A program made the translations under genes and the position numbers. This document shows positions 25,248-54,241 of a stretch of 64,000 nt of DNA, one piece after another. Where the stretch lies: contig NZ_WKLH01000003.1 of NCBI RefSeq assembly GCF_010882175.1, positions 744,001 through 808,000 of the forward strand. The letters run 5' to 3'. The DNA comes from Mangrovibacterium lignilyticum (lineage in GTDB: Bacteria > Bacteroidota > Bacteroidia > Bacteroidales > Prolixibacteraceae). How positions within the stretch are numbered: the first letter of the stretch is position 1; each line of letters begins with the position of its first letter. A model generated the notes under the pieces. It ran no database searches, was not told the DNA's origin, and saw only the letters and a list, made by a program, of their open reading frames with translations.

Positions 25248-26591
25248 TTAGTACGTAAAGGCCAGGCGTTTGCCCCGAATATTGTCTTCAATGTGTCCCC
25301 GGTCGTAAGCCAGCTGACCATTGATAAATGTTTTTGATACTTGTGTCGTGAATTTGGTTCCTTCGAAAGGCGACCAGCCACATTTGTAAATGATGTTTTC
25401 CGGGCAAACAACCCATTCTTTTTGTGGGTTGACTAAAACCAGGTCGGCATAATAACCTTCGCGAATGTAGCCGCGGCGGTCGATCCGGAATAAGTCGGCC
25501 GGTGCATGGCACATTTTCTCAACAACCCGTTCAGCGGTGATCTTGCCTTGTTTGGCAAATTCTAGCATGGCTGTTACCGAATGTTGCACCAATGGTCCGC
25601 CGGATGGCGCTTTGAAGTAGGGATGCGATTTTTCGTCGAGCGTATGCGGCGCATGGTCTGTCGCAATCACATCAATTTTATCCAATAACAGGGCTTCCCA
25701 TAAGGCTTTTTTATCGTCGGCCGATTTCACGGCAGGGTTCCACTTAATGCGGGTGCCGTAAGCAATGTAATCCTGCTCGTCGAACCACAAGTGGTGTACA
25801 CAAACCTCGGCTGTAATCTTTTTATCTTTTACCGGTCCGGGTTGAAAGAGCGACATCTCATCAGCCGTAGAAATATGCAACACATGCAGCCGGGTATCGT
25901 ACTTCGATGCCAGCTCAACAGCTTTCGACGATGATTTGAAACAAGCCTCGGCACTTCTGATTTTCGGGTGGCGCGAGATCGGTACAATCTCGCCGTATTT
26001 CTGGCGGTAAATTTCAATGTTGCGTTTAATGATGGCTTCGTCTTCGCAGTGTGTTGCCACCAATGTTGGTGCATGTTTGAAAATTTCGGACAGTGTTTCC
26101 TGGTCATCTACCAGCATGTTCCCGGTTGATGAGCCCATGAAAACTTTAATTCCGCAAATTTTTGTCGGGTCGGTTTTCAATACTTCATCCAGGTTGTTGT
26201 TGGTTGCTCCCATGTAGAAGGAATAGTTCACTGCGGAAACTTCGGCTGCGCGAACGTATTTTTTCTCCAGTTCCGCCTGGGTTGTTGCTTGCGGATTGGT
26301 GTTGGGCATTTCCATATATGAAGTTACACCACCGGCTAAAGCTGCCCGCGATTCAGTGGCAATTTCACCTTTGTGGGTCATGCCTGGTTCGCGAAAGTGA
26401 ACCTGATCATCAATCGCTCCCGGAATCAACCAGCGTTCCTCTGCATCAATTAACTCGGCATGTTCCAGTTGAGATTCAGGAAGATCTCCCTTGAAAACTT
26501 TGGAGATGAATTCACCTTCAATAATAACTCCTCCCCGGAAACGCATCCCTTCGTTAATGACGATTGCGTTGTGGATGATGGTCTGCTTCAT
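25248..26591 (-). CDS. pyrC: Dihydroorotase
   Basis: 447 residues, amidohydrolase fold. Key motifs: PGAIDDQVHFREPGMTHKG at 56-74, VEMPNTNP-like YMEMPNTNPQ (about 92), GIKVFMGSSTGNML with the likely carbamylated Lys (about 148), THCED, LHVLHIST, and IATDHAPHT near 303. It converts carbamoyl-aspartate to dihydroorotate in pyrimidine synthesis. The first His of the HxH pair is Gln here (DQVHF), as in Porphyromonas gingivalis and other Bacteroidota dihydroorotases, so this is a lineage trait and not a sign of inactivity. It is preceded by a terminator for the upstream gene, so it likely has its own promoter. Confidence 0.9.
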   Translation of the reverse strand: MKQTIIHNAIVINEGMRFRGGVIIEGEFISKVFKGDLPESQLEHAELIDAEERWLIPGAIDDQVHFREPGMTHKGEIATESRAALAGGVTSYMEMPNTNPQATTQAELEKKYVRAAEVSAVNYSFYMGATNNNLDEVLKTDPTKICGIKVFMGSSTGNMLVDDQETLSEIFKHAPTLVATHCEDEAIIKRNIEIYRQKYGEIVPISRHPKIRSAEACFKSSSKAVELASKYDTRLHVLHISTADEMSLFQPGPVKDKKITAEVCVHHLWFDEQDYIAYGTRIKWNPAVKSADDKKALWEALLLDKIDVIATDHAPHTLDEKSHPYFKAPSGGPLVQHSVTAMLEFAKQGKITAERVVEKMCHAPADLFRIDRRGYIREGYYADLVLVNPQKEWVVCPENIIYKCGWSPFEGTKFTTQVSKTFINGQLAYDRGHIEDNIRGKRLAFTY

Positions 26592-26629
26592 ATAAGTTGG
26601 TTTTTATACATAATTACGATTAGAAAATC

Positions 26630-26654
26630 AAAAAGGCTACATTCCTGCAGCCTT
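26630..26654 (-). terminator. Terminator after the mannosyltransferase gene
   Basis: AAGGCT (26633-26638) and AGCCTT (26649-26654) form the stem; read on the minus strand it ends in five Ts. It separates the mannosyltransferase from dihydroorotase. Confidence 0.7.
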
Positions 26655-26694
26655 AAGCAAATATTTTAGGTGTTTTGTTCACGAACTTGGTTGA

Positions 26695-27444
26695 TTACGA
26701 AATTTTACTTTTCTGAGGCTCATAATGTTTGAACCAACTTCTGAGCTTCATTTTCAGAATACCCCAAAGTGCTTCGTTGAAAATACCACCGCTCATTTTA
26801 GAGCTTCCTTCCTGGCGATCGGTGAAAATAATGGGCACTTCAGTTAAGGTGAACCCATGTTTCCAGGCGGTAAATTTCATTTCTACCTGAAACCCGTATC
26901 CCTTCAGCCGAATATCATCCAGGTTGATCGATTCCAGCACTACCCGGCGGAAACATTTGAATCCGGCGGTGGTGTCCATGACCTTCATGCCGGTTACCAT
27001 TCGCACATAAACCGATGCGAAATAAGACATCAGCACGCGGCCAAGAGGCCAGTTGATCACATTGATTCCTTTAATATAGCGGGAGCCAATAGCGACATCG
27101 GCACCTTCTTCTTCGCAGGCTTTGAGCAGTTTTTCCAGGTCTTCGGGATTATGCGAAAAGTCGCAATCCATCTCGAAAATATAGTCGGCGCCATGCTCCA
27201 ATGCCCACTTAAAACCAGTTAAATAGGCGGTACCTAAACCTAATTTTCCTGGGCGTTGCAATAAATGAAGTTTATCCTTAAATTCAACCTGCAACTTTTT
27301 GACAATTTCAGCCGTTTTATCAGGTGAATTGTCATCAAGAACTAATATTTCGAAAGGGGTAGATAACGAGAAAACCTTGCGGATCATCCGTTCGATGTTT
27401 TCCTTTTCGTTATAGGTGGGAATGATTACCAGATTTACTTTCAC
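26695..27444 (-). CDS. Polyprenol monophosphomannose synthase (GT2)
   Basis: 249 residues. Dpm1-type GT2 without membrane helices: VNLVIIPTYNEKENIERMI at the N-terminus, FEILVLDDNSPDKTAEI, GLGTAYLTGFKWALEHGAD, the DxD region FEMDCDFSHNPEDL (about 93-106) and a C-terminal PIIFTDRQEGSSKMSGGI. It transfers a sugar, usually mannose, from GDP-Man to polyprenyl phosphate at the inner membrane for later glycosylation. The frame starts with GTG (27442-27444); no better ATG is nearby. Confidence 0.88.
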   Translation of the reverse strand: MKVNLVIIPTYNEKENIERMIRKVFSLSTPFEILVLDDNSPDKTAEIVKKLQVEFKDKLHLLQRPGKLGLGTAYLTGFKWALEHGADYIFEMDCDFSHNPEDLEKLLKACEEEGADVAIGSRYIKGINVINWPLGRVLMSYFASVYVRMVTGMKVMDTTAGFKCFRRVVLESINLDDIRLKGYGFQVEMKFTAWKHGFTLTEVPIIFTDRQEGSSKMSGGIFNEALWGILKMKLRSWFKHYEPQKSKIS

Positions 27445-27666
27445 GTGAAGTTTCCATTTTGTTCTATGCGAATTTAAACTTTTTGAGCATATCTGGATAA
27501 ACGCATCGGAATATTTTTAGAGGTCTTGTTGTCGAAATGACAGGCATGGTGTTATGATATCGTTAAAATGATACCATAAAATGATTAGTAGTTTGCAGGG
27601 TGCATTATTCTTGTAAATTTTGTAACAAAAAGAAACCGAGATCAAATCTGTTTACGCGGGAGAAGT

Positions 27667-29229
27667 ATGGAATTTAAATGCAAGAAAGCAGGAGATGAAT
27701 GTTATGGCGTAAAGGAGCTAACCCTTTTGTCCGAAATCAGTCAACGGCTCATTCAGAGTAAGGAGCTTAAAAATGATTTGTCGGTAATTCTGGAACTTTT
27801 AGTGAAGAACCTGAACGCAGAACGAAGTTTTCTGACGATTTTCAACAGGCAAAATTCAACCATTTATATTGAAGCAGCGTATGGCTATAGTTCAGCGCAG
27901 CAGGCCAGGGGAAAATACGATTTAGGCGAAGGAATTATTGGACGTGTTGTTGAGTTAGCGAGACCGATTGTGGTCGACAAAATATCACAGTCAAGTTTGT
28001 TTCTGAACAAGACACAACAGGATTTAAAATCAAAAGACGGCGAGGAGTTAACTTATGTCTGTGTTCCGGTTATGGAAGAAGGACAGGTGACAGGTGCGCT
28101 AAGTATGATTCGATTGTACAATCCGTTTATTACCAAAACCGAGAACCTTTATTTGCTGTCGGTTATTGGTGGCCTTGTTTCACGTGTTGTCAGCTCCAAA
28201 CAAGAACAAGTCGAAGAACTTGAGGTATTGCGTCAGAAAAATAAGGAATTGGAAAGTAAATTGAATGACGGACAGCGGCCAGTTAATATTGTCGGTAATT
28301 CGGGAAAAATGCGCGATGTGTATTCCCTTGTCAATATGGTAGCTGAAACGAATTCAACAGTATTAATACGGGGAGAGAGTGGTATTGGTAAAGAATTGAT
28401 TGCCGATGCGATTCATTATTCCAGCAAACGCGCAAAAAATAGCTTTGTAAAAGTAAACTGTTCAGCGTTGCCCGATTCGTTGATTGAAAGCGAATTGTTT
28501 GGTCACGAAAAAGGTGCTTTTACCGGAGCTGATAGTCGTCGGAAAGGACGTTTTGAACTGGCCGATGGCGGCACAATATTCCTGGATGAAATCGGAGATA
28601 TTCCGTTGTCGACCCAGGTTAAAATTTTGCGAATTCTGCAACAGCGGGAATTTGAGCGGCTTGGAGGAACTGAAACCATTAAAGTTGACGTTCGGATTGT
28701 TGCTGCTACGAACCGGAAACTTGAAGAAATGATTGAGAATGGGGAGTTCCGTGAAGACCTGTTCTACCGGATTAATGTATTCCCGCTATTTATTCCACCT
28801 TTGCGTGAGCGTCGTGATGACATTCCATTGTTGGTCGATCATTTTATCGAAAAATTCAATAAGCGCAACGGTACTGGAGTCAAGCGAATAACAACCAGTG
28901 CTCTGAATATGCTGATGGTTTATTCGTGGCCGGGTAACATCCGTGAATTGGAAAACTGTGTTGAGCGCGCCTGTATCCTGACAACTGACGATGTGATTCA
29001 TTCCTATAATCTGCCACCATCATTGCAGACTGCAGACTCAACAAATACGCAGGCCAGAGGAGGATTAATGTATACCGTGGAACAAGTTGAGAAGCAGCTG
29101 ATTCGGGAAGCATTGACTTCGACCAAAGGGAATATAGCGAAGGCTGCCGAGATATTGAAGGTTACCGAAAGAATGTTGGGGACAAGGGTGAAGAAATATG
29201 AAATTGATGCCTGGCGTTTCAAGGTTTGA
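27667..29229 (+). CDS. Sigma-54-dependent activator, GAF-AAA-Fis (NifA-like)
   Basis: 520 residues. GAF domain at about 20-180, sigma-54 AAA+ domain at about 205-435 with Walker A GESGIGKE (236-243), ELFGHEKGAFTGA (276-288; the GAFTGA loop contacts sigma-54), Walker B GGTIFLDEIGD, arginine finger region FREDLFYRINVFP; Fis-type HTH at 475-520 (REALTSTKGNIAKAAEILKV). This domain order is the same as NifA and FhlA-type regulators. A sigma-54 promoter drives nifH 33 kb away, so this could be NifA, but the protein has no redox CX4C linker of rhizobial NifA type, and other sigma-54 activators have the same layout. Divergent from the mannosyltransferase. Confidence 0.85.
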   Translation: MEFKCKKAGDECYGVKELTLLSEISQRLIQSKELKNDLSVILELLVKNLNAERSFLTIFNRQNSTIYIEAAYGYSSAQQARGKYDLGEGIIGRVVELARPIVVDKISQSSLFLNKTQQDLKSKDGEELTYVCVPVMEEGQVTGALSMIRLYNPFITKTENLYLLSVIGGLVSRVVSSKQEQVEELEVLRQKNKELESKLNDGQRPVNIVGNSGKMRDVYSLVNMVAETNSTVLIRGESGIGKELIADAIHYSSKRAKNSFVKVNCSALPDSLIESELFGHEKGAFTGADSRRKGRFELADGGTIFLDEIGDIPLSTQVKILRILQQREFERLGGTETIKVDVRIVAATNRKLEEMIENGEFREDLFYRINVFPLFIPPLRERRDDIPLLVDHFIEKFNKRNGTGVKRITTSALNMLMVYSWPGNIRELENCVERACILTTDDVIHSYNLPPSLQTADSTNTQARGGLMYTVEQVEKQLIREALTSTKGNIAKAAEILKVTERMLGTRVKKYEIDAWRFKV

Positions 29230-29280
29230 TGATGGGCGCTTTTCATCCCCTGATTTTTTGGTTATTTTCATCGCAAAAAA

Positions 29281-29748
29281 ATGCAATTGACTTTTGTTGA
29301 AATCGATCTGAACAATGAAGAGCATGTTGATGCTTTGATCAGTTTATTGGATTGCTATATGCTAGATCCGATGGGTAACAACGCACCAATGCCAGCCGGG
29401 TTGGGGCCCAAAATTATTTCGGGATTACGCGATTACCCATCTTATTTGGGCTTTTTGACAAAGGCCGATGAACGGTATGCCGCGCTGGCAAACTGCAATC
29501 GAAATTTCTCAACCTTTAAGGCAAAGCCTTTGATCAATATTCATGATTTTATTGTTCATCCGGATTTTCGGGGAAAAGGAGTTGGTCAATTTTTATTGGA
29601 TGAGATAGCGGCCTACGGTGAGAAAAACGGTTTCTGCCGGGTAAATCTCGAAGTGCGGCATGATAATGTAAATGCTCAAAAACTATACAGGAAAAGCAGT
29701 TTTGGCGAGTGCAATCCTCCAATGTATTTTTGGGAGCGGTCGTGGTAA
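29281..29748 (+). CDS. GNAT family N-acetyltransferase
   Basis: 155 residues. The acetyl-CoA-binding motif A is IHDFIVHPDFRGKGVGQFLL (about 81-100; R/Q-x-x-G-x-G/A), followed by motif B-like FCRVNLEVRHDNVNAQKLYRK. A PMYFWERSW C-terminus follows. The start is an ATG 51 bp after the activator stop, so the two genes may be co-transcribed. Acceptor substrate unknown. Confidence 0.85.
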   Translation: MQLTFVEIDLNNEEHVDALISLLDCYMLDPMGNNAPMPAGLGPKIISGLRDYPSYLGFLTKADERYAALANCNRNFSTFKAKPLINIHDFIVHPDFRGKGVGQFLLDEIAAYGEKNGFCRVNLEVRHDNVNAQKLYRKSSFGECNPPMYFWERSW

Positions 29749-29826
29749 GTGTTATTCGCCACATAGCGCTGTTTTTCAAACTCACCTATTTTTTAATAAT
29801 TTACTCACAGTTCGGTATTTATATAA

Positions 29827-29859
29827 AAAAATCACTCCCTCATTGGGAGTGATTTTTAA
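29827..29859. terminator. Bidirectional terminator
   Basis: AAAAATCACTCCC (29827-29839) and GGGAGTGATTTTT (29845-29857) are perfect arms with TCATT loop; serves the GNAT gene and the convergent beta-helix gene. Confidence 0.85.
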
Positions 29860-29910
29860 TTCTGTTTATCGCCCTTTTAATCTGCTATTGAATCACCGGG
29901 TATTGTTGAA

Positions 29911-32517
29911 TTAGTTTGAATTCTCTACTGAAATCAGTTTCCCTAATTTCATAAAAATACCACCGTTCACAATGAAGTTTTGGCTATCGTATGCATAGAT
30001 CCCTACAGCTTGATCGTCCACAGCGCTTGTATTGTTGCCTATGATATAGAAGTTCGATATGTTCGCTACAGCCTCGTTCTTTAGGGATATTCCGTATGAG
30101 TAACTGCCGGAAACCTGTGTTTCAGTAATGGTTACGTTTGAAAGCATAACGGGTAATTGTGTGTCTGTCCCGTTCCCTGTTACATTTATTCCGCTCGCGG
30201 TGGCTTTATTAACTCGGACGTTCGTAGCAGAAACTGATGAGTTTGAGATGTCGATTCCGGCACCTGACGCTGATTTTATCTCAATATTATTTAGCGACAA
30301 AGTCCCGAATAAACTTGAAGAAGCGTTTAGATCCGCGATGATGATGGCATCAGATCTTGAGTTTGCTACGGTAATATTGTTTAGGTTTCCGGTGCAGCCA
30401 TTTGCGATTTTAATTCCTACACCATCTGACTCGTCAACTATTAGCTGGTCGATGTTTAAGTTTTCAATGTTTCCACTAAGGTTTATTGTTCCATAAGTAC
30501 TGGCACTTTTACTTTGAGTAATATGGATCTTATTGAAGGAAATATTGCTTGTTAACTGAGAACTGATGTCGCCATTTTTTACGATTGCCTGAGCGTAACC
30601 GATAAAGTCCAAGGCTTCCAGTCTGATATTGGAGCTGCCGGAGTTAATTTGAACGCCTTTGCCAGCAGAGGTAGACTTGAACGTCAGGTCGCTGAAGGAA
30701 ACATCAGTGGCATTGATAATGAATGCAGTATTGCCGTTTGTAGAGATGGTTTTTCTAGCGCCTAAAGATTTGAGAGTTAGTTTGTATTCGATTGTTACGG
30801 TTTCGTTGAGGTTGAAATCACTGTCAATGACAAGATCTGTTAGCTTGTTTGTTATTGCTGCTTTTAATTCACTTTCATTGCTTATGTAATTGTCTGTTGT
30901 ATCTGTAATGGTAACCGTTGTTAGTGATTTCCACTCTGTTCCATCGTATCCGATAAAGTCATTTTTTAAGGTGTCGTAACGTATAACACCCGCCTCGGCC
31001 TCGAAATCACTACTGCCAGTGATTTGTATATCCTGAACCTTTGTGATCCCTTCGGTATAGGTAATTGATTTTTCGTTGCTGTCATAAACCCACCGATTTT
31101 CCGTTGTATCGATGGCTGTTGCAGTTGTTAGTGATTTCCATTCAGAACCGTCATATCCTATGAAATCATTTTTCAGCGTATCGTAGCGAATAACACCGGC
31201 TTCTGCCCCAAGATCGCTACTTCCTGAAATCTTTAAATCCAGAACTTCGGTCATTCCTTCGGTGAAGGATACTGATTTGTTACTTGTGTCATAGGTCCAG
31301 GGAGTATTAACTTCCGTTGTTGGTGCAGTTGTCAATGATTTCCATTCAGAACCGTCATATCCTATGAAATCATTTTTCAGCGTATCGTAGCGAATAACGC
31401 CGGCCTCTGCCCCAAGATCGCTACCTCCTGAAATCTTTAGATTCAGAACTTCGGTCATTCCTTCGGTGAAGGATACTGATTTGTTATTTGTGTCATAGGT
31501 CCACGGAGTATTGACTTCCGTTGTTGGTGCAGTTGTTAATGATTTCCATTCAGAACCATTGTATCCGACAAAATCTTTTGTGTCGCTGCTGTATCGCATC
31601 ATTCCTTCTTCAGGTGTCACATCGCTGCTCCCGAATATTTTAAGGTCTTTCAGTTCTGTCAAGCCTGCAGTATAGGAAATCGATTTGTTCTCTGCATTGA
31701 CCGTCCATAAGGTGTCTGCAATTGTTATTTCTGAGCTTGGAGCTTCTGTTAGAGATTTCCATTCTGCGCCGTTATAGCCTATGAAATCGTTGTTTGCTGT
31801 GTCGTACCTGATAATACCGGCTTCGGGAGTGAGGTTGCTGCTGCCGGCAATTTTCAAGTCCTGTACTTCAGTCATGCCGTCGGTAAAGGATAGCAGTTTA
31901 CTATCAAGGTTAAATACCCATGGCGTATTTGTCGATCCGCTTGATGCAGATGTCGCTGTCAGTGATTTCCACTCATTTCCATCGTATCCGATAAAGTCGT
32001 TGTTTTGGGTGTCGAAGCGGATTAACCCTGCTTCGGGAGCAAGATCACTGCTTCCAGCGATTTTCAAGTCCTGCACTTCAGTCATCCCGTCCGTATAAGT
32101 TAAAGTCTTATAGCTGCTGTCGTAATTCCAGGGATTGTCTGCAGAATGAACGGCGTATAAAGCGATCGGAACAGCTGTAATATCTGATATTCCCAGTAAC
32201 TCACCGTTCATAGTGATCCGGATTTTGTAGCTGCCGGCTCCCCAGTCAATAGCCGAAAAATCACTACTGGGAGATGAGCCTTCTCCGATTTTGAAGTTCA
32301 CAATGCCATTGTCGCCGGTGTCGATCCCGTTGTGTTGCTCCGAGTATTTGGTTTGTCCATTTAGAATTATGTCAATACTAAAGTCTACCGTTTTATTAGA
32401 CATGACCTTGCCTCTTGAGTCTCTCACGACGGCTTGGTAGTTAAATGAGTTGGGCGTTTGGGCAAAGCTTCCAATCTGGAATATTAGAAGTACCAGTATA
32501 ATTAGAATCCTGTTCAT
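29911..32517 (-). CDS. Large secreted protein: QAVVRD domain, six tail-fibre-like modules, parallel beta-helix
   Basis: 868 residues. Signal peptide at 1-19 (LIILVLLIFQIGSFAQ). Residues 20-127 form the Bacteroidota N-terminal domain that begins FNYQAVVRDSRGKVM and ends VPIALYAVHSAD, often found in front of tail-fibre-like proteins. Residues about 128-544 are six tandem modules of 68-71 residues, each ending in an IRYDT..NDFIGYDGSEWKSL phrase. Residues 545-868 are repeated short beta segments typical of a right-handed parallel beta-helix (ISTNGNTAFIINATDVSFSD, ISNSSVSATNVRVNKA). The C-terminus (GGIFMKLGKLISVENSN) carries no recognisable T9SS sorting domain. The gene lies 3 bp downstream of a small T9SS cargo gene. 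Likely a surface adhesin or glycan-binding protein; function unknown. Confidence 0.8.
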   Translation of the reverse strand: MNRILIILVLLIFQIGSFAQTPNSFNYQAVVRDSRGKVMSNKTVDFSIDIILNGQTKYSEQHNGIDTGDNGIVNFKIGEGSSPSSDFSAIDWGAGSYKIRITMNGELLGISDITAVPIALYAVHSADNPWNYDSSYKTLTYTDGMTEVQDLKIAGSSDLAPEAGLIRFDTQNNDFIGYDGNEWKSLTATSASSGSTNTPWVFNLDSKLLSFTDGMTEVQDLKIAGSSNLTPEAGIIRYDTANNDFIGYNGAEWKSLTEAPSSEITIADTLWTVNAENKSISYTAGLTELKDLKIFGSSDVTPEEGMMRYSSDTKDFVGYNGSEWKSLTTAPTTEVNTPWTYDTNNKSVSFTEGMTEVLNLKISGGSDLGAEAGVIRYDTLKNDFIGYDGSEWKSLTTAPTTEVNTPWTYDTSNKSVSFTEGMTEVLDLKISGSSDLGAEAGVIRYDTLKNDFIGYDGSEWKSLTTATAIDTTENRWVYDSNEKSITYTEGITKVQDIQITGSSDFEAEAGVIRYDTLKNDFIGYDGTEWKSLTTVTITDTTDNYISNESELKAAITNKLTDLVIDSDFNLNETVTIEYKLTLKSLGARKTISTNGNTAFIINATDVSFSDLTFKSTSAGKGVQINSGSSNIRLEALDFIGYAQAIVKNGDISSQLTSNISFNKIHITQSKSASTYGTINLSGNIENLNIDQLIVDESDGVGIKIANGCTGNLNNITVANSRSDAIIIADLNASSSLFGTLSLNNIEIKSASGAGIDISNSSVSATNVRVNKATASGINVTGNGTDTQLPVMLSNVTITETQVSGSYSYGISLKNEAVANISNFYIIGNNTSAVDDQAVGIYAYDSQNFIVNGGIFMKLGKLISVENSN
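30886..32136 (-). repeat. Six intragenic repeats, 204-213 bp each
   Basis: Each repeat encodes one WxY...LSFTxGMTEVxDLKI.GSS module. The spacing of the conserved GATTTCCATT sites is exactly 204 bp at 31133, 31337 and 31541, and units 4 and 5 are almost identical at the nucleotide level, while 1-3 and 6 are diverged. This indicates recent duplication within the gene. Confidence 0.85.
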
Positions 32518-32520
32518 CTC

Positions 32521-33087
32521 TTAAGATTTAATAATTTTAAATGTTCGCAATTTCTGATTTTCCTGATTAAAGAATTTAATGAAGTAAATTCCTTTTGGAT
32601 AAGAGGATAGATCAAGTTGTTGGGTCCCTTGATCGAAAGTTTGAGCAAAATTCAAGACAACCTTGCCGGCGATGTCGAATATGGAGATGTCCATAGCTAA
32701 ACTTTGGTCAAACGAGTAGTCAATGCTTAGTTTTGATTTGAACGGGTTAGGATAGACATTTAATTCATCGTCCATGAAGTCCTCCTCTTCAATGCTGCTC
32801 ACGATATCTTGACCATCAGTGGTTATATCACTACCATCAACAATACCTTGATCAGTCGAAGTCGATTCCGCCGTGGCTTGGTGGAAGCCTTGTGTAAGCA
32901 TCACTGTCTCTGTTTGAAATGCTTCCGTAATAGTTTCACCAACTGTAAAATCAATCGTATAGCTAGTAGATTTCAAAGTGCCGCCAGCATTACCGGTGAC
33001 CAGCAAATCAGCTTTACGATTTTGTGCCATTGTACGTATGCTCAGTATGGAGCATAATAGTACACTAAACAAAATAATTTTGTTCAT
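32521..33087 (-). CDS. Small T9SS type A cargo protein
   Basis: 188 residues. Signal peptide (ILFSVLLCSILSIRTMAQ), a middle domain with TIDFTVGETITEAF and VMLTQGFHQ (a phrase recurrent in small Bacteroidota T9SS proteins), an acidic linker (SIEEEDFMDDE, about 100-110), and the C-terminal type A sorting domain from about 111: NVYPNPFKSKLSIDYSF, IFDIAGKVVLNF, LDLSSYPKGIYFIKF and FKIIKS. Type A domains direct outer-membrane export through T9SS and attachment. The start is 3 bp before the beta-helix gene's stop-start junction (gap 3 bp), so the two are one transcription unit. Partner role for the larger protein is inference. Confidence 0.88.
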   Translation of the reverse strand: MNKIILFSVLLCSILSIRTMAQNRKADLLVTGNAGGTLKSTSYTIDFTVGETITEAFQTETVMLTQGFHQATAESTSTDQGIVDGSDITTDGQDIVSSIEEEDFMDDELNVYPNPFKSKLSIDYSFDQSLAMDISIFDIAGKVVLNFAQTFDQGTQQLDLSSYPKGIYFIKFFNQENQKLRTFKIIKS

Positions 33088-33123
33088 TTCTCTCTTTCAT
33101 TTTTTTCCACATTCCTAGCCTAT

Positions 33124-33151
33124 GTCAAACGTAATAGCGCACACGTTTGAC
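33124..33151. repeat. Inverted repeat on the promoter
   Basis: GTCAAACGT (33124-33132) and ACGTTTGAC (33143-33151) are perfect 9-bp arms around a 10-nt spacer. The left arm contains most of the -7 box, so a protein bound here, or a cruciform, would block transcription of the 33087 gene. Confidence 0.65.
33126..33133 (-). promoter_or_regulatory. -7 box of the T9SS/beta-helix unit, within an inverted repeat
   Basis: CAAACGTA reads TACGTTTG on the minus strand, a perfect TAnnTTTG, 39 bp before the ATG at 33087. It is part of the left arm of the inverted repeat at 33124-33151. Confidence 0.5.
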
Positions 33152-33174
33152 CTAATAATCCCTTACTAGTCGCC

Positions 33175-33200
33175 ACTACTGCCACTCTAAAAGCAGTAGT
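33175..33200. repeat. Second inverted repeat with identical spacer length
   Basis: ACTACTGC (33175-33182) and GCAGTAGT (33193-33200) are perfect 8-bp arms around a 10-nt spacer, 23 bp upstream of the first inverted repeat. Confidence 0.6.
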
Positions 33201-33831
33201 GTAATTAATGCGTTAATCAATGAAAAGATGAGTATTTCTATTTGAGAATCTTCAGGCCATTGGAGAAATGGCAAAGGGTGATAATTTTGAAAATTCTTTC
33301 ATTCCACTCGAAACGCTCTCTTTCCTGAAACTCCGCTAAATAATCTTACGCAAATGATTACTTAACATGAATTAATGCCGAAAGTGCAAAAAAGGTTCCG
33401 CATTGCAAATGACTTTTTTAAAATAAATACGCAATCTTAATTTAATCCAAATAGTGAAAGCACAGTTACTTAGTCGAATCAGGGGCGTAATTAGCCCATA
33501 GGTAAACATATAAATTAATAAGAATAAAAATGGATGGGTGAGAAGAGCTACAGATTGCAGGGGGCGTTATAAATAATTGGTTGGATTATTCCCAAGATAT
33601 TAAATCTAGATGAACAAAAATAAGAATACGATATATAATATGTAGTGATCTAGTGTTTGTTATCAGTTTTGTCGATTTTTTTTTAATGAACCTTGTCTTA
33701 GTTCAGAATATCTCAAGACGCAAATTTGGCTATTGCAGAGATTCAGTTTTATCACAGCGAATATTGACTTCCAGATTTACTTGATTTTAGTTCGGCGTAA
33801 TAATGTCAGTGGTCGAACAAAGAAAATAGAA
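33201..33831. other. AT-rich gene-poor stretch
   Basis: About 630 bp without a credible ORF, RNA gene or mobile-element signature. Its base composition is lower in G+C than the flanking operons. I see no repeat of the 36-kb family here. Confidence 0.5.
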
Positions 33832-33860
33832 GAGGCTTCAGTATTGGTTTCTGCAGCCCC
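33832..33860 (-). terminator. Putative terminator of the 33935 gene
   Basis: GAGGCTTCAG (33832-33841) and CTGCAGCCCC (33851-33860) pair with one mismatch; the gene stops 75 bp upstream on the minus strand, and the stem is followed by TTCTATTTT in that direction. Confidence 0.55.
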
Positions 33861-33934
33861 TTCCATCATTCGGTTGTAGAAGACGGTCTATGAAAGTGAA
33901 AACATTGTGTTGCGTAGGTCAGTTATTTGGCTCA

Positions 33935-35467
33935 CTACTCTACTAAAATCAATTTCCCCAATTTCATGAATATTCCGCCGTTAACGGTGAATTTTTGACT
34001 ATTAAGGGCATAGATTCCAACGGCACTATAGTCGGTACTTGTTGTACTAGTGCCCGAGATACAAAAATCAGAAATGCTGGCAACTGCGTTATCCTTCAAT
34101 AGGACACCGTAAGAACTGGTTCCGGACACTTTTGTGGCAGAGATATTTACATTTGAGATTTGCACTGGAGTTGCCGTAGTATTGCCCACGATCTTTATAC
34201 CACAACCAGTTGCTTGATTTACTGAAATGTTAGAGGCTGAAATAGATGAATTCGACGTAGTAAATCCAATTCCGGAGGTGTTGCTAATTGATATATTGTT
34301 TAATTGTATCCTGTTTGAGCTTTTGTCGGAGCTGCTTGTGTCAACTAAAGTCAAGCCATCGCCTTTTGTGTTCGATATCTGGACATTACTTATTGTGCCA
34401 TTGCATGCTTTTAGGACAGTTAATCCTTTTCCCACATCTTTAATGACTACGTTTTCGATTGAAAGGTATTCAATATTTTGAAGGAGACACAGTGCCGAAA
34501 TGTTTTCATCTCCTATGCAGTTCAACACATTTACGTTTTTGATGATTATTCTGGACGTGGAAGAAGAACTATAATTTTTGAAAATTCCCCTCTCAAATCC
34601 AGACATTGTTACATTCTCAATCGCTATATCAGAGAAGCCTGAGGTAATAGTACATCCTGTACCTCCTCCTGATGAATTTAAATTAATGTTTTGAATTGAG
34701 ATGTTTGATGAACTTATCGTTATACCACTAGTTCCCTTTGTGCTAATTGTTTTTCTTCCTCCGGAAGATGTTAGCGTGAGACTGGATGTAATGGTAATCG
34801 GTTTTGATATTGTGAAATCATCAACGATGATCAGATGGGAACTCCCGGCTTCAAGAGCTGCGTTTAATTCAGTTTCATTGCTAATGTATTCGTTTCTTGC
34901 GTTTTCAGTTAATGATTGCCATTTTGAACCATTATATCCAAGGAAGTCTTTATTGGTTTTGTCCCAGCGTATCATTCCCGCTTCTGCTGCCAAATTACTA
35001 CTGCCAGAAATTTTTAGGTCTAAAACTTCGGTCATCCCTCCTGTATATGAAAGGGACTTGTCGCTGGAGTTATAGGTCCAGGGGTTGTCCGCTGATTCTA
35101 CTGCATATAATGCGATGGGGACGGGGCTTATATCGGTTTCCCCGATTAGTTCATCATTCATTCTCACGCGAAGGGTATATCTGCCGGCTCCCCAGTCGAT
35201 AGCAGAGAAGTCGCTGCTGGGATATGTTCCCGCCCCAATCTTAAAGTTTATTAGTCCGTTCAGCCCGGTATTAATCCCATTGTGTTGCTCCCAGTATACC
35301 GTTGTGTTGTTGAGTCTGATTGCAACTTTAAAATCCACTGTTTGGTTTGCCAGTATGTTGCCTTGTGAATCCCTTACGACGGCCTGGTAATTAAATTCAT
35401 CTGGTGTTTGAGAGAAAGCTATCAATTGCGTTAATAAAATCGTTAATGTTAAAGCTAATGTTTTCAT
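33935..35467 (-). CDS. Secreted beta-helix protein, paralogue with a single module
   Basis: 510 residues, clearly paralogous to the 868-residue protein: signal peptide (ALTLTILLTQLIAFSQ), N-terminal domain 20-127 (FNYQAVVRDSQGNILANQ, SSDFSAIDWGAGRYTLRV, VPIALYAVESAD), but only one tail-fibre-like module (about 128-190, TEVLDLKISGSSNL...FLGYNGSKWQSL) before the beta-helix (about 200-495), which ends with the same FTVNGGIFMKLGKLI phrase. It lacks a recognisable T9SS domain as well. Start is an ATG 3 bp after the stop of the upstream T9SS gene on the minus strand. Length difference from the paralogue is explained by module number. Confidence 0.8.
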   Translation of the reverse strand: MKTLALTLTILLTQLIAFSQTPDEFNYQAVVRDSQGNILANQTVDFKVAIRLNNTTVYWEQHNGINTGLNGLINFKIGAGTYPSSDFSAIDWGAGRYTLRVRMNDELIGETDISPVPIALYAVESADNPWTYNSSDKSLSYTGGMTEVLDLKISGSSNLAAEAGMIRWDKTNKDFLGYNGSKWQSLTENARNEYISNETELNAALEAGSSHLIIVDDFTISKPITITSSLTLTSSGGRKTISTKGTSGITISSSNISIQNINLNSSGGGTGCTITSGFSDIAIENVTMSGFERGIFKNYSSSSTSRIIIKNVNVLNCIGDENISALCLLQNIEYLSIENVVIKDVGKGLTVLKACNGTISNVQISNTKGDGLTLVDTSSSDKSSNRIQLNNISISNTSGIGFTTSNSSISASNISVNQATGCGIKIVGNTTATPVQISNVNISATKVSGTSSYGVLLKDNAVASISDFCISGTSTTSTDYSAVGIYALNSQKFTVNGGIFMKLGKLILVE

Positions 35468-35470
35468 TTT

Positions 35471-36010
35471 TTATGATTTTATTATTTTAAATGTTTTAGA
35501 TTTCAGATTTTCTTGATTCAAGAATTTGATAAAGTAGACTCCTTTCGAATAATTTGAAAAGTCTAGTTGTTGAACTCCTTTCGTGTAGTCCTGGTCAAAG
35601 TTCAAAAGTAGCTTCCCTGTGCCGTCGTACACAGAAACAGCCAATTCTTGATTCTCAATGAAAGAGTAAGTAATGTTCAACGTTGTTTGGCAGGGATTAG
35701 GGTAAGCGCTTAGTTCTCCTTCTGAAAATTCCACGACTTCCACTTCGTTTAAAGTTTGTTTGTTTTTAGGAGTGGATAAGTACGCTGCTTGATGAAATCC
35801 CTGAGTTAGCATGATTGAGTCTGTTTTTACGACATTCGTAATTGCTTCGCCGATTGCAAAATCGACGATGTAGTTTTGAGTTGTCATTGTTTTTCCCGCA
35901 CTTCCCTGTAAGTCTCGTTCTAGCGCTTTAATTTTAAGGGAGCTGAGAGTTTGGGCAAAACTGGGTGATTGTATTGCCAATAACAAAAGTAAAATTAGTG
36001 TCTTGTTCAT
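35471..36010 (-). CDS. Small T9SS type A cargo protein, paralogue
   Basis: 179 residues. Signal peptide (LILLLLLAIQSPSFAQ), middle domain with YIVDFAIGEAITNVV and IMLTQGFHQAAYLS, and a type A sorting domain from about 103 (SAYPNPCQTTLNITYSF, VYDGTGKLLLNF, FSNYSKGVYFIKFLNQ, TFKIIKS). The last residues are identical to the 33087 paralogue (KIIKS). The gene is separated by 3 bp from the 35467 gene, repeating the organisation of the downstream pair. Confidence 0.87.
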   Translation of the reverse strand: MNKTLILLLLLAIQSPSFAQTLSSLKIKALERDLQGSAGKTMTTQNYIVDFAIGEAITNVVKTDSIMLTQGFHQAAYLSTPKNKQTLNEVEVVEFSEGELSAYPNPCQTTLNITYSFIENQELAVSVYDGTGKLLLNFDQDYTKGVQQLDFSNYSKGVYFIKFLNQENLKSKTFKIIKS

Positions 36011-36109
36011 CTTTTGTGATTAAGTAATTCTAGCTGTCTTCAATTCTTAGTAAAAGAGTAAATGTTAAGTTGCTTGTGTCTTTGGGGCGGACGACGTTGA
36101 TTTTTTCAT

Positions 36110-36935
36110 CTATCATTCCAATGATATCACCATGGAGACATTCATTCACAACTAAATTTTTAAAAAGCTGATGTAACATTTTAGCGTCGGAGGGAATGTT
36201 CGGAGATACGCACAGTGTTATGTCCAAAATAAATTCCACTCAAACACTACAAGACCAATCTCTGGTCAGTCAACTACATCCATTTCCTGCCGTAAACCCT
36301 CTATTTCTGACAGACCTGTTTGTGTGATAAGTCTGCTAGTATTAACCTACAATAAAATCTATCAATTGAGATCGGCTTATTGTAATTAAGGCTTCCGGTT
36401 AGCCGGAAATGTTCGTAACTAGGTTTCAGGTATCTGAATAAATATATAGTGGAGGGTGGATCAATCGGAAATACGCACATTTTTTTATCCAAAATAGATT
36501 CCACTCAAACACTACGGGCCAATCTATGGCCGGTCAAACGCTTTTATTTCCGGTGGTGCAGAGCTACTTGTTTAATATACCTGTTGAGCTTCACCTACAA
36601 TAAAATCAATCGATGGAGATTGTTTTAATGTAACAAGGTTTCCAAGTGACCGGAAATGTTCGTCATTAATTTTCAAATACCTAACGAAATATTTAGTGTA
36701 AGGGGAACATTCAGAAATGCGCACAGCTTTATATTCAATAAAAATTCCACTCAAAACACTACAGACCAATTTTAGGTCGATCAAACGAATCCATTTCCTC
36801 CAGTGAAGCCGCTAAGTTTTAGCTGATCTATTTTGTAAATAAATCAGAGATAACTTACTGATCGTAAAACCAATCAAGTAGATTGTCCTATCGCATACAA
36901 GCTTTCTGGTGACCGGAAATTTCAGTTTCTAGTCC
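36110..36935 (-). repeat. Three to four tandem units of about 246-265 bp
   Basis: The phrase TTCCACTCAAA(A)CACTAC occurs at 36234, 36499 and 36745. Preceding it each unit has a GGAAATACGCAC-like phrase and following it a small hairpin (36253-36267, 36517-36531, 36764-36778), an AATAAAATC phrase and an ending GACCGGAAATGTTCGT. A more diverged partial unit precedes the first. Each unit holds a minus-strand open frame of about 67-70 codons starting at the same place in the unit (36239, 36504 and within the frame ending 36784), with related peptides (YLK..EHFR..G.L, SID). It could be a decayed coding repeat, a structured RNA family or a mobile-element remnant. Confidence 0.7.
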
Positions 36936-37442
36936 TTTTCTCTAAATTTTAGTGCTTTTAATTGAATATAACACGAGGGTTAAGGGAAGTCGTATTTTCC
37001 ACTTTCTTTTCCACGTTTCTTAATTGCAACAGATCATATGGGATGATCCTCAAAACATCCAGTACATATAAAGACTTAGATGTCCGTTTATGTATGAGTT
37101 GGGTGCAAGATGTTCAAAATGTTCGAATGGACAATGGATTTTTTAAGAAAAATGCTCAATCTTTAATTAATGTAAATAAGGTTTGTGAAAGATGTTAAAA
37201 CGCTTTTTGTGGATGCCTATTTGAGCTGATTCTTTTGAAAAAGTATTATTTGCTAATGGTTTGACCTTTGTAAGTGATCGCGAAAATTCTATCGTGGTAT
37301 TTCTTCCTTGGGGAATTTTTTATTTTTTTGCGTTTTCTCGTTTCACCTGTGGAGTAGTAAAGTGGATTTATTTTCGATAAATTGTGAGGCTAACAATTTT
37401 AGGTGTTGTGTGTTTCAAGAAATGATTTAAATAACTAGAGTC
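36936..37442. other. AT-rich stretch before DUF423
   Basis: About 500 bp. The only longer frame (plus strand, 36962-37198) has unlikely composition and no recognisable start signal; I do not call it. No RNA gene or terminator is evident. The first part continues the end of the third repeat unit. Confidence 0.4.
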
Positions 37443-37811
37443 ATGACAAAAACTATAATAATTACTGCTGCAGGCTGTTTGGCGATAGCCGTTGCGATTG
37501 GTGCATTTGGGGCACATGGGTTAAAGTCGAAACTTTCGCCCGAAATGATGACTGTATATAAAACAGGAGTGGAATACCACTTTTACCATGCTTTAGGTTT
37601 GTTGCTGGTTGGAGTGTTGGCTCTTCAAATGCCTTCATCATTGCTCAATTTATCCGCTTTGTTTCTTTTCTTAGGAATCGTGGTTTTTTCGGGGAGCCTT
37701 TATGCGTTAGCTGTAACCGGTATTAAATGGCTTGGTGCGATAACTCCGATTGGCGGTTTGAGTTTTATCGCAGGATGGGTGCTTCTTGTTGTTGCAGTTT
37801 TAAAGAACTAG
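37443..37811 (+). CDS. DUF423 membrane protein
   Basis: 122 residues with four predicted membrane helices. The family signature is present: IAVAIGAFGAHGLKSKL at about 17-33 and VEYHFYHALGLLLVG at about 46-60, then FSGSLYALAVTGIKWLGAITPIGG near the C-terminus. YgdD-like DUF423 proteins are widespread and of unknown function. Single gene before the nuo operon, separated from it by about 480 bp. Confidence 0.9.
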   Translation: MTKTIIITAAGCLAIAVAIGAFGAHGLKSKLSPEMMTVYKTGVEYHFYHALGLLLVGVLALQMPSSLLNLSALFLFLGIVVFSGSLYALAVTGIKWLGAITPIGGLSFIAGWVLLVVAVLKN

Positions 37812-37862
37812 GTGTCACTTCCAATTGAATTCCAGGGACAGGGCAATTTTCGTCCAACGCTA

Positions 37863-37954
37863 TAAAAAGGGCGATTTCTGGGCTAAGACAGATAGGATTT
37901 GGAATTTGAGATAATCGTTTTGCCATCTTTTGTTAAGAAATCATGCCCTTTTTA
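37863..37954. repeat. 92-bp element with 10-bp terminal inverted repeats
   Basis: TAAAAAGGGC (37863-37872) and GCCCTTTTTA (37945-37954) are perfect; they continue inward as GATTTC (37873-37878) and GAAATC (37937-37942) with a 2-nt bulge. The internal 58 nt do not pair strongly. It may be a long-range terminator of DUF423 or a MITE-like relic. Confidence 0.5.
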
Positions 37955-38142
37955 TTTAGATCCAATATAAATCATAGGTTCTATAATATTAAATACATAT
38001 CCGTCTTTATATTTTTTATTACACTGTTATTTAGGCCGTATTGAAAATATATAGTGAGATTAAGTCAATTATATATCCAGATATATTGATTTGTTGTTTT
38101 CAAAAAAAAACGTCTGTTAATTTTTCGGAATAATTAAAAATT

Positions 38143-38150
38143 TACTTTTG
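38143..38150 (+). promoter_or_regulatory. -7 box of the nuo operon
   Basis: TACTTTTG (TAnnTTTG). The start site would be near 38157, leaving a leader of about 130 nt. No clear -33 TTTG at 19-21 bp upstream. Confidence 0.5.
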
Positions 38151-38160
38151 CTAGCTCATT

Positions 38161-38199
38161 TTTCATCCGAATATTAAAAATATTCAATGCCGGATGAAA
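38161..38199 (+). promoter_or_regulatory. Extended hairpin in the nuo leader
   Basis: TTTCATCC (38161-38168) pairs with GGATGAAA (38192-38199); inside, GAATATT (38169-38175) pairs with AATATTC (38179-38185) over an AAA loop, with a six-nucleotide bulge on one side. It starts just after the expected transcription start. Confidence 0.55.
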
Positions 38200-38223
38200 C
38201 CCTCATGCTTTGTGTATGTGATG

Positions 38224-38242
38224 CTCTTCAGTCTTCGAAGAG
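38224..38242 (+). promoter_or_regulatory. Second leader hairpin
   Basis: CTCTTC (38224-38229) pairs with GAAGAG (38237-38242), loop AGTCTTC, 47 bp before the nuoA start codon. Confidence 0.4.
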
Positions 38243-38289
38243 TAAGTACACTGTGTGTCCGTTTCACTGACATTACTTAAGCTTGTGTT

Positions 38290-38640
38290 ATGAGTAGTGA
38301 AATGTTAATTTTATTCTTCGTTGTAGCCATAATTTTAGTTGGAGGAGCAATTGTCTTTTCCTCTCTGGCTGCCCCCAGCTCGCTTAATCCTGCGAAGTCC
38401 GAACCCTACGAATGTGGTATTCCAACCGAAGGTCCTGCCTGGATTCAATTTAACGTTGGTTATTACCTGTTCGCAATTATTTACCTCATTTTCGATGTTG
38501 AAACCGTCTTTCTGTTCCCTTGGGCAACAGTGATGCGCAATATCGGCATGAGAGCCTTTGTCGAAATAATCATCTTCTTTTTTATTCTGGGAATCGGACT
38601 GTTGTACGCATGGAAAAAGCAAGCACTGAAATGGGTATAA
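38290..38640 (+). CDS. nuoA: NADH-quinone oxidoreductase subunit A
   Basis: 116 residues, three membrane helices, signature [20 protein letters not shown] (about 36-55) with the typical ECG motif and [11 protein letters not shown] (about 68-78). Membrane subunit of complex I near the quinone-module junction. First gene of an 11-gene operon; its stop overlaps the nuoB start. Confidence 0.95.
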
Positions 38641-39191
38641 AAATTAAATCAATGAATTACGAGGATTTCGAAGACAATGACTCTTTGGAAATCTTCAAGA
38701 AATCAGGTGGTAGCATTTTGCTGACCAGTATTGATAATCTGCTGAACTGGGGACGTTCGAACTCGGTTTGGCCACTGACTTTTGCCACCAGTTGTTGTGG
38801 TATTGAAATGATGGCAGCGGGAGCATCGCGGCACGACTTTGCCCGTTTCGGGATTGAAGTTTACCGTGCCACACCGCGTCAGGCTGATGTGATTGTGGTT
38901 GCCGGAACGATTGTTCACAAAATGGCACCAGTCCTGAAACGCCTATACGATCAGATGGCCGATCCGAAATATGTTATTGCCATGGGAGCTTGTGCCGTCT
39001 CCGGCGGTCCCTTTTACTATAATTCGTACTCTGTTGTTCGTGGTGTCGACCACGTGATTCCGGTTGATGTATATGTTCCGGGTTGCCCACCGCGCCCCGA
39101 AGCTTTGCTCTATGGTGTCATGCAGTTGCAACGAAAAATTAAGACCGAATCGATCCGGGAACCCCGGAAAGCTAACGATAACCTGCTTTAA
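38631..39191 (+). CDS. nuoB: NADH-quinone oxidoreductase subunit B
   Basis: 186 residues from the ATG at 38631, which overlaps the nuoA stop by 10 bp; a second ATG is at 38652. Ligands of the N2 4Fe-4S cluster are visible: [21 protein letters not shown], and [10 protein letters not shown]. It carries the terminal cluster that passes electrons to quinone. Upstream extension of the frame into nuoA is a shadow. Confidence 0.95.
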
Positions 39192-39200
39192 TCGAAAGTT

Positions 39201-39656
39201 ATGCAAAAACTGGAATTACTAGCCGAATTACAAAAGCATTTTCCCGAAGCAGAATTTCCCGAAAATACGCAACTCACCGAAATGGTGATTTCCAAAGATA
39301 AAATCCACGAAGTTGCGGCTGTTTTGAAAGCTGACGAGACATTGGCTTTCGATTATTTAATCAGTCAGACGGCGGTGGATTGGAAAGAAAAAATGACCCT
39401 CGTATACCACCTCGAATCCGTAAAGCATCGTCATACGCTGGTATTGAAAGCGGACGTTGCAGATCGTGAAAATCCGCAGGTTGAAACGGTTTCTGATATT
39501 TGGCCAACTGCCATTCCGCACGAGTGCGAAGTTTTCGATTTGTTTGGAATTCGATTCAACAACCATCCGGCGTTGCGCCGCTTGTTTTTGGAAGACGATT
39601 ACGGCTATCCTCTGCGGAAGGATTTCCGCGACGAAGTCAATTTCATTGAACGTTAA
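39201..39656 (+). CDS. nuoC: NADH-quinone oxidoreductase subunit C
   Basis: 151 residues, 30 kDa subunit family. C-terminal signature TAIPHECEVFDLFGIRFNNH, and RRLFLEDDYGYPLRKDF at the end. Separate from nuoD, not fused. Ten bp after nuoB. It connects the peripheral arm. Confidence 0.94.
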   Translation: MQKLELLAELQKHFPEAEFPENTQLTEMVISKDKIHEVAAVLKADETLAFDYLISQTAVDWKEKMTLVYHLESVKHRHTLVLKADVADRENPQVETVSDIWPTAIPHECEVFDLFGIRFNNHPALRRLFLEDDYGYPLRKDFRDEVNFIER

Positions 39657-39665
39657 TCTCTTGTT

Positions 39666-54021: not shown

Positions 54022-54241
54022 TTTCCATGCGTGCTTGCCTCGCCCGGCCGTCCGGGAAGCAATTTCCATCAGTGCTTGCCTCCACCGACGGTTCGGGAAG
54101 CAATTTCCATCGGTGCTTAGCTCGCCCGGTCATCCGGGAGCCAATTTCCATCGGTGTTTGCCTCGCCCGGTCATCCGCGAGCCAATTTCCATCGGTGCTT
54201 GCCTTGCCCGGCCATCCGCAAGCGAATTTCCAGGCGTGCTT
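54022..54241. repeat. 41-bp palindromic repeat array, five full units plus a part
   Basis: Units start at 54022, 54063, 54104, 54145 and 54186 (period exactly 41 bp) with a partial unit at 54227. Consensus starts TTTCCATCGGTGCTTGCCTC and continues GCCCGGTCATCCGGGAGCCAA. Each unit contains a hairpin around its centre; unit 4 has arms CTCGC/GCGAG and unit 5 CTTGC/GCAAG, a compensatory change. The array is G+C-richer than its surroundings, is not a multiple of three (so all frames are read through), and lies between the convergent maeB and tolC genes. Confidence 0.8.

Follow-up and report, generated by a model that had tools for sequence, protein, structure and literature searches.

Fibres of the mosaic adhesive trimer (MAT) superfamily, the prey-recognition fibres of the predator Bdellovibrio bacteriovorus, combine a conserved base with exchangeable tips, and in the main text their discoverers state that the surface element binding the N-domain awaits identification (Caulton 2024, PMC10769870). 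That main text holds no word starting with 'bacteroid', other strains being placed in supplementary tables. Type A cargo of the type IX secretion system (T9SS) bears a C-terminal sorting domain (CTD) and, according to PMC9143113 and PMC4804311, ends linked to surface lipopolysaccharide in Porphyromonas. Here we describe two tandem gene pairs of Mangrovibacterium lignilyticum (Bacteroidota), located on the minus strand of a 64-kb stretch of contig NZ_WKLH01000003.1 (positions 744,001 to 808,000; hereafter the window). According to the list of open reading frames (ORFs), each pair consists of a small gene and a large gene. Both halves belong to known kinds, the large proteins being MAT-like fibres and the small ones T9SS type A cargo. 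Our preferred reading, to which we assign a probability of roughly 0.6, is that the window holds two tandem copies of a two-gene cassette of Bacteroidota, made up of a modular adhesive fibre and a T9SS anchor. In the SprB-SprF type pairs (type B CTD and PorP-like partner) a surface protein is likewise held by a dedicated partner, but there the adhesin bears the CTD and a barrel serves as its partner (PMC9143113), whereas in the window pairs the CTD sits on the partner.

In the large proteins, as in MATs, the leader appears to run straight into a conserved beta-rich N-domain (MAT-N); a fibre shaft and exchangeable phage-like tips with or without S74 are further common features, and several paralogues occur per genome in part of the genomes. 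A difference from MATs is the T9SS cargo gene that accompanies the fibre gene, and the fibre is known here from its sequence and a single-chain model. MATs are recognised by a conserved beta-rich domain of ~130 residues right after the signal peptide. Against NF053851 (Bdello_MAT_N, 'mosaic adhesive trimer family chimeric fiber protein', NCBIfam), the 868-aa protein scored 44.8 bits (E 1.1e-11, residues 8-82) and the 510-aa protein 39.7 bits (E 4e-10, residues 10-82), with a cut-off of 60. This model matched three places in the own genome and none in 14 control genomes. It also matched all 65 scanned fibres of relatives at E<=1e-3, these fibres having been found with a custom profile of the same domain. 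The 65 were taken from 88 complete fibres (16 of 104 ran off their locus or lay on the other strand), and the 23 left out were mainly the longest, some being near-identical or short. Judged from these matches, the N-domain is likely a relative of the MAT N-domain. An earlier note on this DNA had put the unit forward as a candidate for an undescribed variable surface system; given the match to NF053851, the large protein probably does not represent a new kind. Sequence searches of solved structures returned only chance-level matches with the MAT-N alignment (best E 0.52) and none to E 0.1 with the 868-aa protein.

In both pairs the stop of the small gene is followed after 3 bp by the ATG of the large gene. 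The ORFs and the matches to Por_Secre_tail and TIGR04183 agree with the earlier description of tandem pairs of a small T9SS type A gene and a large gene at this spacing. The two small proteins are 46% identical to each other. The large proteins have the same architecture (leader, N-domain, one or six 68-residue modules, C-terminal beta-helix) and are 67% identical over the N-domain and 43% over the beta-helix, which bears out the claim of shared N- and C-terminal parts. The 204-nt module occurs seven times: the 868-aa gene has six copies and the 510-aa gene a single one, as had been read from the letters. Neither large protein has a T9SS domain in Pfam (to E 10) or NCBIfam (to E 1), again in line with that reading. 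Lipoprotein anchoring of both large proteins was ruled out by eye, the end of the leader being without a cysteine.

Modules 4 and 5 of the 868-aa gene are 95% identical in DNA and the remaining module pairs 56-70%, so one of the two is recent or converted. The tail-fibre motif noted earlier in the modules is real in the 868-aa protein, because phage families of PHROGs match over its modules (phrog_25721, E 7.6e-21; phrog_2803, E 4.7e-17); the 510-aa protein had no PHROGs match to E 1. The 868-aa modules also match Pfam BP74_N (39.7 bits, cut-off 27) over a 32-residue stretch, probably through a shared GYDG..W repeat. An AlphaFold2 single-chain model of the 510-aa protein (mean predicted local distance difference test, pLDDT, 81.4) was confident over the N-domain (block means 88-96, residues 21-110) and over the beta-helix (78-96 at residues 191-440, 49-82 beyond), with the linker and the module poorly defined. 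Foldseek matched the tip to the P22 tailspike, other tailspikes, a GH87 glucanase and AlgE-type epimerases (AlgE4), and a second structure comparison matched it to phage tailspikes and pectate-lyase-like proteins. These matches support a fold class rather than a specific function, because root-mean-square deviations are large and TM-scores reach at most about 0.55. Among the 65 fibres of relatives, mosaic tips with or without S74 stand on the conserved base: S74 chaperone domains were found in 12, collagen in 10, FISUMP in 8, Lcl_C in 8 and YadA_head in 4, and single Kelch or collar domains are also among the families listed. Many phage tail-fibre families match these fibres as well (best 25 of 134 families).

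At the syntenic site of one congener (G003) there is a single pair with the same neighbours on either side, named by eye as an acetyltransferase-like gene on one side and genes for a small membrane protein and NADH dehydrogenase on the other. Its 879-aa fibre has six modules, four recognised by a regular expression and two variant-ended ones by eye. Because this orthologue already has six modules, the expansion from one to six that the earlier note put forward is not demonstrated. Between the two species the base is more conserved than the tip, the 868-aa unit being 77% identical to its counterpart over the N-domain, 68% over the small protein and 49% over the tip. The part that differs most between these two species is the tip and not the number of modules, both fibres having six. 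Phase variation by module number was dropped as a candidate, two species having been compared. In two further congeners, estimated to be 99% (G001) and 85% (G002) complete, neither MAT-N nor the partner gene was found.

These data also bear on the idea that the large genes are captured prophage tail-fibre genes with no conserved cellular role. Phage families do match the modules and the tips of relatives, and phage tailspikes are the nearest match to the tip fold. Nevertheless, the proteins have an N-terminal leader, the syntenic locus of a congener is flanked by the same genes, the base domain is conserved across Bacteroidota together with a T9SS partner, and no further phage gene was recognised by eye among the ORFs at 25248-40793. 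We therefore regard such an origin without a cellular role as very improbable.

The small proteins conform to T9SS type A cargo in having a leader and a CTD above the cut-off (TIGR04183, 54.4 and 46.1 bits, cut-off 23), the hydrophobic leader being read from the sequence and not from a signal-peptide predictor. In the model of small partner 2 the sorting domain reached a pLDDT of ~95, and its best structure match was the CTD of mirolase from Tannerella (8qb1, E 5e-4). They differ from known type A cargo in two ways. Their proposed load is a second polypeptide, and what remains beside leader and CTD is a short domain that Pfam and NCBIfam do not match consistently. This domain, which we call q, is a recurring unit of ~44 residues ahead of the CTD with the consensus ..G......S.T.GE.V..T........TQGFHQ. 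In a set of 43 partner proteins, comprising 41 of 45 partners and the two of the window (the 45 were pre-filtered for a CTD, so that 43 of 43 have one by construction), the only frequent matches were to T9SS-related families, over the CTD where positions were shown; other Pfam and NCBIfam matches were weak and confined to a few of the proteins. For this reason the q domain appears, at the level of sequence, to be unmodelled in these libraries. The partner at locus L033, which lacks the QGF end, was omitted from a separate set (A5). A sequence search of solved structures with the q alignment gave only chance-level matches (best E 0.51). The q genes of three loci (L203, L205 and L207) have other C-termini and no CTD by a custom profile; by eye, dockerin-like D.N.DG.VD.DDF repeats close two of them, and GWN..G repeats the third. 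At L136, q is placed at the end of a long protein.

The pairing recurs within and beyond the genome of the window. NF053851 and q each matched three places in the own genome, making three pairs; the third, divergent pair lies outside the window (C9, 1660.0-1661.0 kb, 12 bp gap), and all three MAT-N-like genes therefore have a q/CTD gene directly upstream. A partner gene was upstream in 17 of 30 loci read by eye, at gaps of -1 to 96 bp. Of 100 related genomes, 56 had MAT-N and 54 had q (both in 50, MAT-N only in 6, q only in 4 and neither in 40), a co-occurrence with a Fisher value of 6e-17, uncorrected for phylogeny or seeds. Searched from the side of q, these relatives yielded 99 loci (101 places minus two copies of the own genome), of which 16 are seeds of the q profile and paired by construction. 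MAT-N lay downstream on the same strand in 67 (189-897 nt from the end of q, median 318), and a CTD was in the same frame as q in 93. In 11 loci (L234-L238, L240, L242, L244, L250, L257 and L260) the gene order is swapped, as a MAT-N frame lies directly upstream within 60 bp, and in four others (L243, L247, L252 and L253) MAT-N is 0.5-2 kb off. Once the seeds were removed, MAT-N was downstream in 51 of 83 loci and abutting upstream in 11.

A second set, drawn from named genomes, comprised the best 80 matches (78 loci, L054-L131) by similarity to one paired seed and included loci of Bacteroidales, Flavobacteriales, Chitinophagaceae, Cyclobacteriaceae and Sphingobacteriales. Pairs were present in Chryseobacterium, Kaistella, Kordia, Polaribacter, Flavivirga and Fluviicola of the Flavobacteriales (among the matches listed) and in Chitinophagaceae and Cyclobacteriaceae (L107 and L121), and the Sphingobacteriales locus (L109) had MAT-N alone. 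A stricter first count, with eight truncated cases set aside and 96 MAT-N domains tested, found q within 1.5 kb in 42 and a CTD within 600 bp upstream in 48; a single q was seen on the downstream side within 1.5 kb, and the opposite strand had none. When a q profile iterated on these same loci was used for 104 MAT-N domains, q was directly upstream of 47 and directly downstream of 5, a CTD protein was directly upstream of 5, q was within 6 kb of 9 (usually in fibre arrays), 14 were truncated and set aside, and 24 had none. In several Chryseobacterium loci q was visible only with the iterated profile. In a sample of 118 genomes drawn evenly across the phylum, q occurred in 12 genomes, all 12 of which had MAT-N, and MAT-N occurred in 31 overall. 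Its 20 q places (3 from the own genome) had MAT-N 290-356 nt downstream in 14, at 1305 and 1625 nt in two, upstream in three (917-2138 nt, domain to domain) and nowhere in one. At L236, L264, L116, L105 and L125, two to four MAT-N genes follow one another in an array that has few q genes or none, and here one anchor may serve several fibres. One pair with q, CTD and MAT-N (L095) is on a contig labelled Chlorobiota, reflecting either spread outside Bacteroidota or a misassigned metagenome bin.

The two partners also diversified together. Over the 76 adjacent pairs that passed length filters (from 47 genomes, 16 of which contributed at least two), the pairwise distances between q domains correlated at 0.66 with those between MAT-N domains. 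When partners were shuffled within genomes, which keeps the species history, the correlation averaged 0.345 and peaked at 0.551, and none of 1000 shuffles reached the observed value. The pairs are inherited as units. The earlier note had advised a search for the same pair elsewhere and named its lack of conservation as counter-evidence; since the pair is widespread in Bacteroidota, in both gene orders and co-diversifying, that objection fails.

A T9SS translocon is indicated in the host by SprA, the T9SS part searched (G000:C8:1614885-1622180, 2702.5 bits, cut-off 200). Of the 118 genomes in the phylum sample, 91 have SprA, among them every one of the 31 with MAT-N, and the 27 genomes without SprA had no MAT-N. 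Three SprA-less genomes among the relatives (G016, G021 and G067) likewise had neither MAT-N nor q. None of the 65 fibres of relatives had a T9SS sorting domain, TIGR04183 and TIGR04131 being absent from the 13 families listed as matching. At one locus (L205/L030), a q gene with a different C-terminus and no CTD by the custom profile still stands ahead of a MAT-N gene. The congener with the syntenic pair has two full-length SprA genes adjoining each other (G003:C1:2850778-2866121), and the genome of the window has one.

Given these observations, the cassette might work as follows. Sec would take both proteins across the inner membrane. By means of its type A CTD the small protein would leave via T9SS and become linked to surface lipopolysaccharide as in Porphyromonas, and its q domain would bind the N-domain of the fibre and keep the fibre on the surface. 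The fibre, presumably a trimer, would consist of a conserved base, a shaft that varies in length and a tailspike-like beta-helix as its diverging tip, with shaft and tip pointing outward and the tip binding a glycan or surface ligand. No outer-membrane sorting signal was found in the large protein, which may cross the outer membrane by its own route, as Bdellovibrio MATs must, or together with the small protein. The small secreted partner probably anchors the fibre to the cell surface, and is a candidate for the Bacteroidota equivalent of the MAT surface-binding element. A more specific form of this proposal, to which we give somewhat less than even odds, is that Bacteroidota have split MAT-like fibres into a CTD-less fibre and a small T9SS adaptor, with q as a dedicated MAT-N receptor and the signal for export across, or anchoring at, the outer membrane supplied in trans.

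Alternatively, the small protein might be an escort as well as an anchor, the CTD-less fibre binding it in the periplasm and riding through the T9SS. Such export in trans seems unlikely to us. It would accord with a T9SS sorting model in 0 of 65 fibres beside a CTD in 93 of 99 q loci, and with SprA in 31 of 31 MAT-N genomes, but trimeric fibres of several hundred to >1000 residues would be a large folded load and, to our knowledge, Bdellovibrio MATs reach the surface with no known T9SS. A parallel comes from the TANFOR polymorphic toxins of Bacteroidetes (PMC7073777), which are likewise large, secreted-looking proteins in neighbourhoods enriched in T9SS substrates and for which the authors hypothesised T9SS export. 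They differ in having SprB-type neighbours, whereas a dedicated small partner is found here, and the large proteins of the window had no TANFOR-named or toxin match in Pfam or NCBIfam, libraries whose content of a TANFOR model was left unchecked. The portion of a T9SS effector review consulted (PMC10202324) is without the words 'CTD-less', 'devoid of', 'co-secret' and 'partner', which also speaks against export in trans.

Several points weigh against the reading of the pairs as a fibre and its T9SS anchor. The MAT-N scores of the window are under the NCBI cut-off and their alignments, spanning profile positions 2-78 and 3-77 of 162, cover about half of the model. The q domain is predicted as four strands with low confidence (pLDDT about 60). 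The CTD tracks MAT-N as well as q does (correlation 0.69; shuffles with a mean of 0.43 and a maximum of 0.62, 0 of 1000 reaching it), and co-diversification therefore points to inheritance as a unit and not to the contact domain. The association of SprA with MAT-N (Fisher 1e-4) is weaker than its number, because the SprA-less genomes are mostly from one family. A T9SS partner is not the sole display route, because Bdellovibrio displays its MATs and we know of no T9SS there. The stretch examined contained no MAT-N for 17 of the 99 q loci, some of these stretches ending at a contig edge, and 24 of 104 MAT-N domains were without a partner nearby. At E 1e-4, q was not found in 19 of 31 MAT-N genomes of the phylum sample, reflecting divergence or true absence. 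Sampling matters too: the q profile was seeded from MAT-N-adjacent genes, so that the reverse test favours paired relatives even seed-free; the named-genome loci were chosen by likeness to a paired seed and overlap the relatives (L054, L106 and L110 are G024:C26, G092:C71 and G085:C2); and the 104-domain count relied on a profile iterated on the loci counted.

A further alternative is mere co-expression: the small protein would be a T9SS cargo in its own right, kept on the surface or released, that acts in the same setting as the fibre, for example as a second adhesin, with no fibre contact. Consistent with that, q is also fused to other modules, and the genes downstream of q genes lacking a MAT-N neighbour are, by eye, unrelated to each other. 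Yet pairing in both orders, near-zero gaps, pair-specific co-diversification and a CTD-less partner beside MAT-N exceed what shared regulation needs, and we judge co-expression alone to be improbable, slightly more so than export in trans.

In the titles and abstract openings listed by a literature search, with preprints and most subscription journals outside it, MAT or tail fibres were never joined with T9SS. As far as the literature searched goes, the stable pairing, the q domain and the placement of the sorting signal on the partner rather than on the fibre appear new. The proposed anchoring cassette suggests an answer to how such fibres stay on cells, and a conserved partner gene in another phylum makes the question of the MAT surface partner testable. 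It predicts that T9SS-dependent surface proteins outnumber CTD-bearing ones, CTD-less fibres relying on CTD-bearing partners, and offers q as a domain with which to look for them. If the cassette reading is right, many stray-looking tail fibres of Bacteroidota are a modular adhesion system. If the split-fibre proposal is true, the adaptor would be a 'surface element' of the sort left unidentified by the MAT discoverers, and T9SS would export or display proteins without a T9SS signal of their own.

Table 1. Positions of the two gene pairs, their domains and upstream elements in the window.
Feature	Position	Strand	Basis or remark
Small partner 1, 179 aa	35471..36010	-	ORF; hydrophobic leader, q domain, T9SS type A CTD
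q domain, small partner 1	35780..35911	-	q profile E 4.6e-17 (profile seed)
T9SS type A sorting domain, small partner 1, residues ~103-179	35474..35704	-	Pfam 1.7e-14, NCBIfam 3.7e-12
Fibre protein 1, 510 aa	33935..35467	-	ORF; one module, no T9SS domain found
MAT-N-like domain, fibre 1, residues ~21-122	35102..35407	-	NF053851 and alignments
Single repeat module, fibre 1	34898..35101	-	Repeat family D1
Beta-helix tip, fibre 1	33938..34897	-	Pfam Beta_helix E 8.6e-4, below cut-off; Foldseek
Small partner 2, 188 aa	32521..33087	-	ORF; hydrophobic leader, q domain, T9SS type A CTD
q domain, small partner 2	32869..33012	-	q profile E 3.9e-17 (profile seed)
T9SS type A sorting domain, small partner 2	32524..32757	-	Pfam 1.1e-16, NCBIfam 9.3e-15
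Fibre protein 2, 868 aa	29911..32517	-	ORF; six modules, no T9SS domain found
MAT-N-like domain, fibre 2	32152..32457	-	NF053851
Six 68-residue modules, fibre 2	30910..32151	-	Repeat analysis; phage-family matches
Beta-helix tip, fibre 2	29914..30891	-	Pfam Beta_helix E 9.2e-4, below cut-off
GAGTGGAAT element ~223 bp before small gene 1	36233..36244	-	Repeated at 36498 and 36744
GAGTGGAAT element ~214 bp before small gene 2	33301..33312	-	Surrounding stretch aligns well with that of G003

A short element precedes both small genes (Table 1), and the count of its pattern over the whole window is at chance level. Upstream of pair 1, positions 36200-36814 hold three degenerate non-coding repeats of ~250 bp, each with TTTGAGTGGAAT, and a copy of TTTGAGTGGAAT with one mismatch stands about as far ahead of pair 2 and of the pair of the congener G003. 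Over the whole window this motif, too, is no more frequent than chance. A 621-bp stretch of these repeats matched only itself in the genome, and the window, upstream repeats included, had no Rfam match at gathering scores. Elsewhere in the window, positions 54022-54232 form a tandem array of about five 41-bp units with 81% matches.

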